Assembly (NCBI RefSeq): GCF_900411315.1
Contig: NZ_LS990887.1
Span: 1,898,268-1,962,267, forward strand
Reading direction: 5' to 3'
DNA: 64,000 nucleotides
Source: Corynebacterium senegalense
GTDB lineage: Bacteria > Actinomycetota > Actinomycetes > Mycobacteriales > Mycobacteriaceae
Under the pieces are notes generated by a model. The model saw only the letters and a program-made list of their open reading frames with translations. It did not search any database and was not told the DNA's origin. Positions 5,296 to 12,020 of this stretch are shown one piece after another (positions within the stretch are counted from its first letter, which is position 1; the number at the start of each line of letters is the position of its first letter). Position numbers and translations under genes: made by a program.

Positions 5296-6405
5296 CTACC
5301 AGCCGGCGAAGAGGCGCTCGAGGCGCTGGGGGGCGTCGAGAAGCGTGAGCCCGAGAAGCTGCCCGCGCGAGCGCACGCTTGGCGACGTCAGAGCCCGCGC
5401 CCTCGCCGTCGCCACCTCCGTGCCGTCCGCGCACACGTGGTGCCGGTCGGTGGCCCGCCGGTAAAACACATCCGCGTCCTGCAGCGCCCACGGTTGGCGC
5501 AGCCCGACGCGGATTCTTTCGTTCGCGGGCGCGCCGGCGACCACGCGCGGGTCGGCGGCGAAGAGGCCGGGCACGGCGGGGACGTAGACGCGTGCGTCGA
5601 TGCGCAGCCAGGAGGCGATGACCGCCTCGAGCGCGCCGGGCTGCGGGAACTCAGCCGCCACGACGGCGACGTCGGCGGTGTCGAAGACGACGCCGGCCGG
5701 GCGAGCCAGGGGGTGGGTGACGCGCCTGGCCAGCGCCAGCGTCTCGACGTTTTTCACCCGTGCCTCCTCCGCGGTGTCCGGGTGGCGGGCGCCGAAGTCC
5801 GTCTCCGGGTGCACCGCCACCGCGGCGGGCTCGTGGACGAACTCGGCGCCGGCGTTCCAGGCCCGCCAGCCAAATTCCCAGTCCTCGCCGCCGTAGCCGA
5901 CGAAAGACGCGTCGAAGCCGCCGACGTGGCGGAAGAAGGTCGCCGAGCAGGCCAGAGCGGCGGAGATGATGAAGCGCCAGGAGGTGTCGTCGGCGCGGGA
6001 GAGGTGGTCGGTGCGGGTCCAGGCGTCGGCAAGCCACTGGGGCTCTGAGCGGTCCGGGCCGGTGAGCCGGCTGCCCACGACGAGCGCGCGGCGGTTGCGC
6101 TGGATGTGCGGCACGACCGCTCGCAGGAAGCCGGGCTCGGGCAGCGTGTCGCCGTCGAAGAAGACGAGCACCTCGCCGGTGGCCGCCGCGGCGCCGAGGT
6201 TGCGGGCTGCGGCGGCGCGGAACCCCTGGTCCTCCTGCGCCACCACGCGCACGCCGGGCAGAGAGGGGACGATGTCGGAGCCGTCGTCGGCGACGATGAT
6301 CTCCACCCGCCCGGGGTAGTCCTGCGCCCGCACCGCCGCGACGACCCCGGCCAGCGCGGAGTGGTTGTTGTAGTGCGGGATGACCACGCTCACATCAGGC
6401 CACAC
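5296..6405 (-). CDS. Family 2 glycosyltransferase with galactosyltransferase-type C motif
   Basis: This 369-residue protein has a GT-A (GT2) domain in its first ~220 residues: VVIPHYNN at the start, the ADDGS motif near 39-43, the metal-binding DGD at 84-86, and VGGFD...GYGGED at 161-175, the motif of Glyco_transf_7C domains. About 140 C-terminal residues after the GT2 domain match nothing I recognise. The GTG at 6405 is supported by GAAGGAG eight bases upstream; a longer reading frame lacks family sequence. It overlaps the preceding gene by 16 bases and is the last gene of the leftward glycan operon. No membrane segment is visible, so it probably acts in the cytosol. Donor and acceptor are unknown. 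Confidence 0.82.
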   Translation of the reverse strand: MWPDVSVVIPHYNNHSALAGVVAAVRAQDYPGRVEIIVADDGSDIVPSLPGVRVVAQEDQGFRAAAARNLGAAAATGEVLVFFDGDTLPEPGFLRAVVPHIQRNRRALVVGSRLTGPDRSEPQWLADAWTRTDHLSRADDTSWRFIISAALACSATFFRHVGGFDASFVGYGGEDWEFGWRAWNAGAEFVHEPAAVAVHPETDFGARHPDTAEEARVKNVETLALARRVTHPLARPAGVVFDTADVAVVAAEFPQPGALEAVIASWLRIDARVYVPAVPGLFAADPRVVAGAPANERIRVGLRQPWALQDADVFYRRATDRHHVCADGTEVATARARALTSPSVRSRGQLLGLTLLDAPQRLERLFAGW

Positions 6406-7316
6406 GCCGCCCACTCCTTCTTCCAGGCCGCTGCGACATCTGCCCAACCCCAGCTCGGCGGCTCGAGCACGCGGGGCTCGAACGTATCGACGGCCTCCCG
6501 CCACGCCCCGTCGCGCACGAGCGTGATGCGCCCGGGCAACCAGCGGTCGATCTCGCGGGTGTAAGGCGAGTCGCTGGCCAGGACGGTGCGCCCGGCGCCG
6601 AGCCAGGTCATGAGCGAGCCCGAGGCGGAGAAGTGGCGGTGGGCGCAGACGGGGATCGCGGTGCGGGCCATCTCGCGGGCGAGGTCGGCGTCGCTGAGCC
6701 AGCCGGTGATCTCGGCGTGCTCGGCGAGCCCAGCCGCCCACTCCTCGTGACCCGCAGACACCCCGCCGAGGAAGCGCAGCCGGTAGCCGGTGCCGCGCAG
6801 GGCGGCGATGAGGTCCTCGTGGCCCTTGCCGGGGTAGATGAAGCCCAGGATGCCCACGGTGTTCGGCTCGGGGGCGAAGGGGGCGGGCGCGTCGACGCGC
6901 GGGATGGGCAGGCGGATCACGGACACGGGCGTCGCAAGGCCGTCGAAGGCGTCCACAGCGCCGAAGAAGGAAGCCTCGTGCTCCGAGTTCACCGCGGCGA
7001 GGGTGGCGGCGGCGGTGAGGCGTCGATAGGCGGGCGCGCGGCGCGCGAACCTCTCGGAGCCCTCCTCGGGCTGGGGGATGTCGTGCAGGCTCAGCGAGAA
7101 AGGGCGGTTCCCGAGCCGGGCGAGGAGGGCGTCGACCGCGGCGTCAGGCGTGGTGCCGAAGAGGTGGTCGGTGAACGTGACGTGGACCGGGCCGTCGGGC
7201 AGCGCGGTGTCTGCGAAGGTCTCCTCGCGCACCACCTCCGCGCCCAGTTCGCCCGCCAGGGAACGGGCGTAGGCGGTCACGCCGTGGCCGTCGGGTCCGA
7301 CGATGAGGTGGATCAC
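6390..7316 (-). CDS. Glycosyltransferase, GT4/GT-B-like
   Basis: This 308-residue protein begins with a Rossmann-like strand and glycine loop (IHLIVGPDGHGV). Its C-terminal half contains the GILGFIYPGKGHEDLI segment and an ASGSLMTWLGAG...SPY region typical of the donor half of GT-B enzymes. The canonical E-x7-E motif is not obvious. The GTG at 7316 forms a GTGA overlap with the stop of the WcbI-like gene, implying translational coupling. It is the middle gene of the leftward arm of the divergent glycan locus. Substrates cannot be assigned from sequence. Confidence 0.72.
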   Translation of the reverse strand: MIHLIVGPDGHGVTAYARSLAGELGAEVVREETFADTALPDGPVHVTFTDHLFGTTPDAAVDALLARLGNRPFSLSLHDIPQPEEGSERFARRAPAYRRLTAAATLAAVNSEHEASFFGAVDAFDGLATPVSVIRLPIPRVDAPAPFAPEPNTVGILGFIYPGKGHEDLIAALRGTGYRLRFLGGVSAGHEEWAAGLAEHAEITGWLSDADLAREMARTAIPVCAHRHFSASGSLMTWLGAGRTVLASDSPYTREIDRWLPGRITLVRDGAWREAVDTFEPRVLEPPSWGWADVAAAWKKEWAACGLM

Positions 7317-10278: not shown

Positions 10279-12020
10279 GCCGCACGATCGGCATCTACGC
10301 CCACCACCACGGCTCGGGGCACATCCACCGCTGCCGGGAGATCCAGCGCGAGTTGCGCGCCCTCGGCTACGACGCGGTGCTGCTGTCCACCGACCCGCGC
10401 GCCGACGTCGTGCTTCCCGACGACTCCGGCGGCGGCCCGGAGCCCACCGCCCGCGCGACGCTCCACTACGCGCCCTACGGCAACGCCGGCCTGCGGCAGC
10501 GCTTCGCCGCCATCGCGGGGTGGATCGCCGCGGCGGACCCTGCGGCGTTCTTCGTGGACGTCTCGGTCGAGGTCGCCGCCTTCGTCCGCCTCACCGGCGT
10601 ACCGGTGGCGACGATCGCCATGCCCGGGGTGCGCGACGACGCACCGCACCAGCTGGCCTACCGGCAGGCCGACGCGATCGTCGCGGCCTGGCCCTCCTGG
10701 GTCGGGCTGCCGCGCCACCTGCGCCCCCACGCCGCGCGCGTGCACGCGGTGGGAGGGATCTCCCGCCTCACCCGGGCGTCGACCGAGCGGGACCCGTCGC
10801 ACGTGCTGGTCATGGCCGGAAACGGCGGCTCCACCTGGGACGAGGGCGACTGGGAGGCGGTGCAGCGCGCCTGCCCCGGCCACCGCTTCACCTTCCTCAC
10901 CGGCGGCAGCCGCGTCGACGACCCGACGGAGCTGCTTTCCGGGGCGGGGGTGGCGGTGATCGCGGGCGGGCAGAACTCCATCGCCGACGTCGCGGCCACC
11001 GGCACGCCCGCGGTGGTCCTGCCGCAGCCGCGGCCGTACGCGGAGCAGGCCGCCTCGGCCCGCGTGCTCGAGGAGGCGGGCCTGGCCGTGGTTGCCGAAG
11101 AGTTCCCGCCGGCGCGGCAGTGGCCGGAGCTGCTGCAGCGCGCCGGGGAGCTGCGCGCGGACTGGTCGCGCTGGGAAACCTTCGGGGCGGCGCGCCGGGC
11201 CGCCGAGGCGATCGCGGGCGTCGCGCGGGGTGCGGGCGGCCCCGCGACGGCGGTGCTCTCGCTCGCCGACGCCGGCCGCGCCCGCCACCTGGCCAACCAG
11301 GTCTCCCTGCTGCCCCCGGGGGTCGAGCACATCACGGCCGCGCTTTCCGCCCCCGCCGAGCTCGCCCGGGCCGTGCCCGGCAGCCGCGTCGTGGCCGCGC
11401 CCTCGCGCAACCTCGCCGCAGCGCGCAACCGCGCCGCGCGCGAGGCGCTCGACCGGGGCGCCGAGGTCCTCGTCTTCCTCGACGCGGACTGCGTCGCCTC
11501 GGGCGAGCTGCTCACCCTCTACGCCGAGGCGCTGGCGCGCCACCCCGACGCCGTCGTCGCCGGGCCGGTGACGTACATGGAACCCGGTGAGTTGCGCACC
11601 ACCGACCCCGCGCCGCACCCGGCCAGGCCGAACCCGCCCGCCGGGACGACGGAGGCGGCCGAGGACTACAACCTGTTCTGGTCGCTCTCCTTCGCGGTCA
11701 CGGCCGCGACGTGGCGGCGCATCGCGGAGGCCTTCGGCGGCTTCGACGAGGGCTACACCGGCTACGGCGGGGAGGACACGGACTTCGCCCGCAACCTGGA
11801 AAAACACGGCATCGACCTGCGGTGGGTCGGCGGCGCGCACGCCTTCCACCAGTGGCACCCGGTGTCCTCGCCGCCGTGGGAACACCTCGACGACATCCTC
11901 GCCAACGCCGCCTACTTCCGCTCCAAGTGGGGCCAGTGGCCAATGGAGGGCTGGCTGCGGGAGTTCGAAAAGGCAGGGGCCATCGCGCTTGTCGACGGCA
12001 CCTGGCAGCGCACCGGCTAA
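10275..12020 (+). CDS. Two-domain glycosyltransferase: MurG/GT28-like fused to GT2
   Basis: This 581-residue protein carries two apparent transferases. Residues 1 to about 320 resemble a GT28/MurG-type GT-B protein: [13 protein letters not shown] is a glycine-rich acceptor loop, and [20 protein letters not shown] near 235-255 is the donor-binding region. From about residue 322 a GT2 GT-A domain begins; it shows FLDADC near 400 and [15 protein letters not shown] near 486-500, the same Glyco_transf_7C motif as the GT at 5296. The GTG at 10275 overlaps the previous stop as GTGA. The fusion suggests two consecutive sugar additions coupled in one polypeptide (inference). The stop overlaps that of the convergent reductase by four bases. 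Confidence 0.83.

Follow-up and report, generated by a model that had tools for sequence, protein, structure and literature searches.

A nested glycosyltransferase cassette of Corynebacterium senegalense and its possible role in the synthesis of an acetylated cytosolic oligosaccharide

The DNA considered here is a window of 64,000 nucleotides from Corynebacterium senegalense, in whose genome of 2.31 Mb a block of six genes (positions 5296-12020 of the window) forms two divergent overlapping operons, A-B-C leftward and D-E-F rightward. The block encodes five predicted glycosyltransferase (GT) proteins, with six GT domains in total, and one WcbI-family protein. As our leading, if still tentative, explanation we propose that it makes a small free O-acetylated hetero-oligosaccharide wholly in the cytosol, and that this product is probably a stress solute. 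It is possible, and we put this forward with more reserve, that an undescribed class of stress solute is represented here, namely a modular O-acetylated cytosolic hetero-oligosaccharide made by a nested cassette (E-F, D, A+B, C) in actinobacteria and in alphaproteobacteria, the latter with a primer module of sucrose-phosphate synthase (SPS) and sucrose-phosphate phosphatase (SPP). An earlier note on this DNA, made from its letters, knew of no described corynebacterial product that needs exactly such a set, and none was found in the literature that we searched.

Evidence for a soluble product

We favour a soluble stress solute because the glycosyltransferases are free of membrane helices, relatives of the cassette are linked to SPS and SPP, the block holds no carrier-lipid genes, its gene sets are nested, and some relatives show ties to stress sigma factors. 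No transmembrane helix was predicted by hydropathy in any of the six proteins, where the highest 19-residue Kyte-Doolittle mean is 1.57 and the customary helix threshold is 1.6. The Pfam scan of 5296-12020 found no transporter, flippase, ABC exporter, polymerase or priming transferase (phosphoglycosyltransferase), and no methyltransferase. The genes overlap by 16 bases (A/B) or by 4 (B/C, D/E and E/F), and 54 bp separate C from D. The helix-free, divergent six-gene block with no export or priming genes of its own, as the earlier note had described it, is thus real by open reading frames (ORFs), Pfam and hydropathy. A capsule or teichuronic acid cluster was considered and rejected, as 5296-12020 has neither a priming transferase with flippase and polymerase nor an ABC exporter; no tested match placed the block in such a known pathway.

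Gene E (9175..10278, + strand, 367 aa, PF00534/PF13439) encodes a GT4 glycosyltransferase related to glucosylsucrose synthase. Searched with phmmer against the solved structures 8x3q and 7fg9 it gives E-values of about 1e-30, and a profile of 14 E proteins has the Thermosynechococcus enzyme TeGSS (7fg9) as its best match over the full length (2.1e-59), followed by a tetrahydrobiopterin (BH4) glucosyltransferase at 1.1e-53 and then by SPS at 5.6e-28. The donor-site residues Arg179 and Lys184 of TeGSS correspond to Arg206 and Lys211 of gene E and are invariant in 14/14 aligned E proteins. By likeness, gene E would encode a retaining glucosyltransferase of the TeGSS type, yet one of a separate subfamily. 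In Thermosynechococcus TeGSS (tll1591) adjoins SPS (tll1590) and makes glucosylsucroses, which salt- and heat-stressed cyanobacteria accumulate, according to excerpts of PMC9909042.

A corresponding neighbourhood occurs among alphaproteobacterial relatives of the cassette: genes of MurG-like, GT2 and E type stand beside a gene for an SPS-like GT4/PF05116 protein, both on plasmids and in two Paracoccus genomes, five such synthase/phosphatase proteins having been domain-scanned. By profile search the SPS-like domain is present in 12/12 alphaproteobacterial loci and the sucrose-phosphate phosphatase (S6PP) domain in 11/12, the loci being ten fetched plasmid loci, drawn from 13 alphaproteobacterial rows among 20 listed (39 records matched overall), together with L035 and L061. 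Locus L212 lacks the phosphatase domain, and in L205 the E gene lies on the opposite strand. The beta-proteobacterial locus L022 has neither an SPS nor a phosphatase match. Since this linkage goes together with gene E being nearest to glucosylsucrose synthase, a free soluble sugar acceptor is the better supported one, and the lipid, protein or cell-wall polymer that had been supposed earlier as acceptor is not favoured.

Among the same relatives, two Methylobacterium plasmids (L209, L210) carry a second F2-like GT2 gene between the SPS-SPP and MurG-like genes and have the E-like gene reversed, which suggests a larger product there. In a Sphingomonas operon the genes that follow (L201:12136-13973) encode a polysaccharide pyruvyl transferase and a further GT2.

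Conservation and nesting of the cassette

The genome-wide searches covered C and F of the six genes in 201 Corynebacterium genomes, a strong F match being one with E<1e-40, a cut of our own. Gene C was found in 55/201 genomes and strong F in 58/201, and all 55 genomes with C also have F. Loci were fetched for all 58 F-bearing genomes, giving 59 regions, two of them from G112, where the locus is cut by contig ends and incomplete. All seven domains are present in 54 of the 58, and their order and divergent arrangement agree in 54/54; in six of these complete genomes the match to one or two genes is split in two, possibly by frameshifts. F without C is confined to three genomes, G018 (C. hylobatis; L018/L195), G139 and G092 (L198 and L197), in which D is closely followed by the GT2 half of F, nothing is left of E, and little or nothing is left of the MurG-like half. 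To judge from what they retain, these loci are decayed remnants of the block, and two of them (G018 and G139) lie at the site between rpiB and a reductase gene. The six genes therefore behave as the conserved unit that had been foreseen, and independent occurrence was not seen for C and F.

The block is bounded on the left by rpiB (4822..5295, +) and on the right by an aldo/keto reductase gene (12017..12847, -), both outside the pathway. In five of eight hand-picked block-free Corynebacterium regions (L246, L247, L250, L251, L253) rpiB directly adjoins the reductase gene, so that the block sits exactly between the two. Among the 59 block regions rpiB is visible in 33; it was not seen in the remaining 26, so that the block occupies more than one site.

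Specificity to corynebacteria was not upheld: the block recurs in many other actinobacteria, including Rhodococcus (also on plasmids), Mycolicibacterium, Mycobacterium, Actinoplanes, Microbacterium, Agrococcus, Frigoribacterium, Kocuria, Rothia and others. Gene F is found in 44/298 genomes and 19/76 genera of the host's order (at 1e-30). From the named-genome scan the best 80 of 567 F relatives were kept, with a linkage window of about 10 kb, and counts from it are not frequencies. After 12 of the 80 loci had been dropped as cut by contig ends, 65/68 were nested, starting from E-F and adding D, then A+B, then C: E+F alone in 8 loci, D+E+F in 14, A+B+D+E+F in 8 and the whole set in 35. The three exceptions are L018, which is one of the remnants, L046 (F only) and L056 (E degraded). 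C is accompanied by A and B in 36/36 uncut loci, and A and B occur together and with D in 44/44; 32 of the 35 full sets keep the exact order of the window, L014, L017 and L043 being rearranged. This gene content is as would be expected for a glycan core which is extended and lastly acetylated. Gene F itself (10275..12020, +, 581 aa) joins two domains in one protein, the first GT-B and MurG-like (residues 1-320 or so), the second GT2 (325-581 or so), and among 131 two-domain loci, some genomes counted twice, the domains are fused in 39 and encoded by separate adjacent ORFs in 92.

The flanks were surveyed by scanning one member for 30 of the 43 families that four or more loci have in common. 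A fusion of PIG-L deacetylase and NodS-type methyltransferase stands in six flanks (L015, L017, L043, L058, L060, L081), most of which also hold a GT2 family together with a 321-aa protein that has no Pfam match. Two Agrococcus loci have, at a distance of 300-400 bp, a GH13 gene whose closest match is maltodextrin glucosidase (L033:2293-4260, L038:2430-4397), and the same family is found more than 6 kb from the cassette in L065 and L073.

Promoters and stress regulation

Both operons would be fired from the divergent promoter region at 8159..8212, where two candidate leaderless promoters, already pointed out by the earlier note, are predicted: a -10 box TATATT on the top strand (8201-8206), ending 6 nt before the start of D, and a -10 box TAGATT on the bottom strand (8170-8165), 6 nt before the start of C. 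Gene D starts with GTG, and a GTG at 8210 is another option. In the clade of the window (27 regions, 26 with fused F and L152) the pattern of TATATT, spacer and start is kept in 21/27 (shuffle mean 0.2) and the pattern of the left, C-side, box in 11/27 (shuffle mean 0.3); the other 28 Corynebacterium regions have the right pattern in 0 and the left in 8.

A possible tie to stress regulation comes from cassettes that are minimal, that is, lack A, B and C. With the SigF consensus from a study of sigF in M. smegmatis (excerpts of PMC4694148), a strict SigF-type site, GTTT-N14-17-GGGTA, was found within 350 bp in 8/12 minimal Mycobacteriales cassettes (shuffle mean 0.02), the bearers being Mycobacterium, Mycolicibacterium, Nocardia and Williamsia; two Rhodococcus cassettes are among the 12 and have no site. 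The flank families include SigF-type sigma genes at 6 loci and GAF-ANTAR genes at 8, and two annotated Rhodococcus plasmids have SigB/SigF/SigG genes in the vicinity of the cassette.

Proposed pathway and the points against it

The acceptor, the donors, the order of steps, the product and its role in stress we infer as follows. Gene E and the two domains of F would elaborate a small soluble sugar acceptor, a non-reducing disaccharide which may be trehalose in actinobacteria and sucrose in alphaproteobacteria; D would prime or add a further unit, A and B would extend the glycan, and C would acetylate the product. Trehalose is our guess, which we base on OtsA being encoded in the window's own genome and on the weakness of the sole S6PP match there.

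The last step fits what is seen of gene C (7313..8158, -, 281 aa), a putative acetyltransferase of the WcbI family, which matches PF18588 over residues 5-201 (profile 3-204 of 205) with 198 bits against a cut-off of 29.2. The WcbI structure 4bqn is matched weakly (E 0.0017), with Cys10 of gene C aligned opposite Cys14, the residue that binds coenzyme A in the crystal (excerpts of PMC4104973), and the motif GNCQ is kept in 96/96 gene C matches. The acetyl decoration that had been suggested is, on this family membership and motif, probable. Many other taxa have in this protein an N-terminal extension with a HYGxFY motif; this motif was not found in 52 of the 96 matches, including the window and its clade, misses at ORF boundaries being possible.

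Several observations weigh against the proposed soluble stress solute. The acceptor-contacting Trp10 and Tyr18 of TeGSS are replaced by Arg26 and Ala34 in gene E, for which reason we rejected its assignment as a true TeGSS. No SPS-like match was obtained at 1e-15 in any actinobacterial locus searched, the window included, and the S6PP match of the window's genome is weak (22.9 bits against a cut-off of 20.3) and more likely a general HAD phosphatase; the acceptor may therefore differ in actinobacteria. The N-terminal domain of F is nearest to MurG, an enzyme with a lipid acceptor. The strict SigF site was found at 0/11 Mycobacteriales loci with the full A-B-C set and at none of three loci on Rhodococcus plasmids. 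In the window the 54-bp gap has no GTTT-N14-19-GGGTA site, and the predicted promoter is of the TATATT type. An ABC-ATPase family occurs in the flanks of 12/80 loci, 1.1-9.1 kb off and on both strands, and a major facilitator superfamily (MFS) family in those of 5; these are common families outside the operons, but with such transporter-like genes nearby the product may be exported. Finally, according to excerpts of PMC4104973, enzymatic activity has never been demonstrated for WcbI itself.

Alternative explanations

The main rival is an inner-leaflet glycolipid, in which the enzymes would elongate a housekeeping phosphatidylinositol, diacylglycerol or polyprenyl phosphate, and a general system would flip the acetylated product. 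Peripheral glycosyltransferases, too, have no membrane helices, PimB' and PimA are among the Foldseek matches of B, and the first domain of F is MurG-like, profile A1 of F matching MurG (1f0k) and chondroitin synthase (2z86). In Pfam the GT2 domain of F is over its cut-off and the GT28-C/MurG-like domain under it, and identity with the NCBIfam murG equivalog was rejected at 18.2 bits against a cut-off of 250.25. Against a glycolipid, the block has no priming transferase or flippase, its alphaproteobacterial version comes with a sucrose-type synthase and phosphatase, and for most of the best structural matches of D and B the acceptor is a small molecule or a free sugar, although these matches are ties at the level of the superfamily. 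We regard a glycolipid as unlikely.

It seems rather improbable that the product is an acetylated polysaccharide which is secreted or attached to the wall and depends on a polymerase and an exporter from other loci. Excerpts of PMC4104973 place the definition of WcbI within the capsule cluster of Burkholderia pseudomallei, and some flanks carry an extra GT4 family (5 loci) besides the ABC-ATPase and MFS families already mentioned; the genes of the latter two are, however, scattered in distance and strand, and no polymerase or priming transferase family was among the 30 flank families scanned.

There is a slim chance that a small cofactor or metabolite, such as a pterin or a thiol, is glycosylated and later acetylated. 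Among the solved relatives of E, BH4 glucosyltransferases come second in closeness. Gene B (6390..7316, -, 308 aa), which has Pfam matches below cut-off only and a YPGKGH motif, was assigned as a GT-B fold glycosyltransferase from its AlphaFold model, with a mean predicted local distance difference test score (pLDDT) of 92.7, and from Foldseek; its best matches are MshA, the methylmannose polysaccharide mannosyltransferase, GlgM, PimB' and SenB. Gene D (8213..9178, +, 321 aa) is a GT4-type glycosyltransferase over the cut-off of PF13439 (36 bits), and its model (pLDDT 94.2) likewise matches GT-B enzymes. B or D comes near to MshA, BshA and SenB in fold, but such matches are ties within a large superfamily; six GT domains are, in our judgement, many for a cofactor tag, and the SPS/SPP linkage speaks for a sugar acceptor instead. 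Glycosylation of a cytosolic protein, as in the systems of serine-rich repeat adhesins, is highly improbable. Gtf3/GtfC of such systems are among the Foldseek matches of B, but those matches are at the level of the GT-B superfamily, and neither an accessory Sec nor an adhesin family was found among the 30 scanned flank families.

The remaining gene of the block, A (5296..6405, -, 369 aa), encodes a family 2 glycosyltransferase (PF00535, 89 bits) with a GYGGEDWE motif and alternative GTG starts at 6414 and 6393.

Significance and comparison with known systems

A locus whose homologues are named only 'glycosyltransferase' is seen here as a nested and widely shared cassette with a product class that can be tested. 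If our proposal of a protective oligosaccharide is true, it would give corynebacteria, mycobacteria and Rhodococcus a new family of compatible solutes, and WcbI-type proteins would gain a soluble substrate with which their activity could at last be revealed.

The methylglucose lipopolysaccharides (MGLP) and methylmannose polysaccharides (MMP) of mycobacteria are methylated polysaccharides that are cytosolic, acylated and have no dedicated exporter. Both B and D match the mannosyltransferase 7qsg of the MMP pathway in fold, and the PIG-L/methyltransferase family stands in the flanks of 6 cassette relatives; the block differs in having no sugar O-methyltransferase and another set of glycosyltransferases. 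With MurG, the GT-B domain of F shares an N-terminal loop of the HHxGxGH type and a weak similarity to Glyco_tran_28_C, but it falls far under the equivalog cut-off and is fused or adjacent to a GT2. With WcbI of Burkholderia pseudomallei (4bqn; excerpts of PMC4104973) gene C shares PF18588 and the cysteine that binds coenzyme A, yet it is a shorter protein that occurs only together with A and B, and the block has no capsule export machinery.

The glucosylsucrose pathway (SPS tll1590 and TeGSS tll1591; excerpts of PMC9909042) differs from the block in that the latter includes a WcbI protein and further steps of MurG-like, GT2 and GT4 type, has the equivalents of Trp10 and Tyr18 replaced and, in actinobacteria, comes without SPS. 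The likeness lies in gene E, which is nearest to TeGSS and keeps its donor-site arginine and lysine, in the SPS-like synthase that accompanies the alphaproteobacterial relatives of the cassette, and in a synthesis that does without carrier-lipid machinery.

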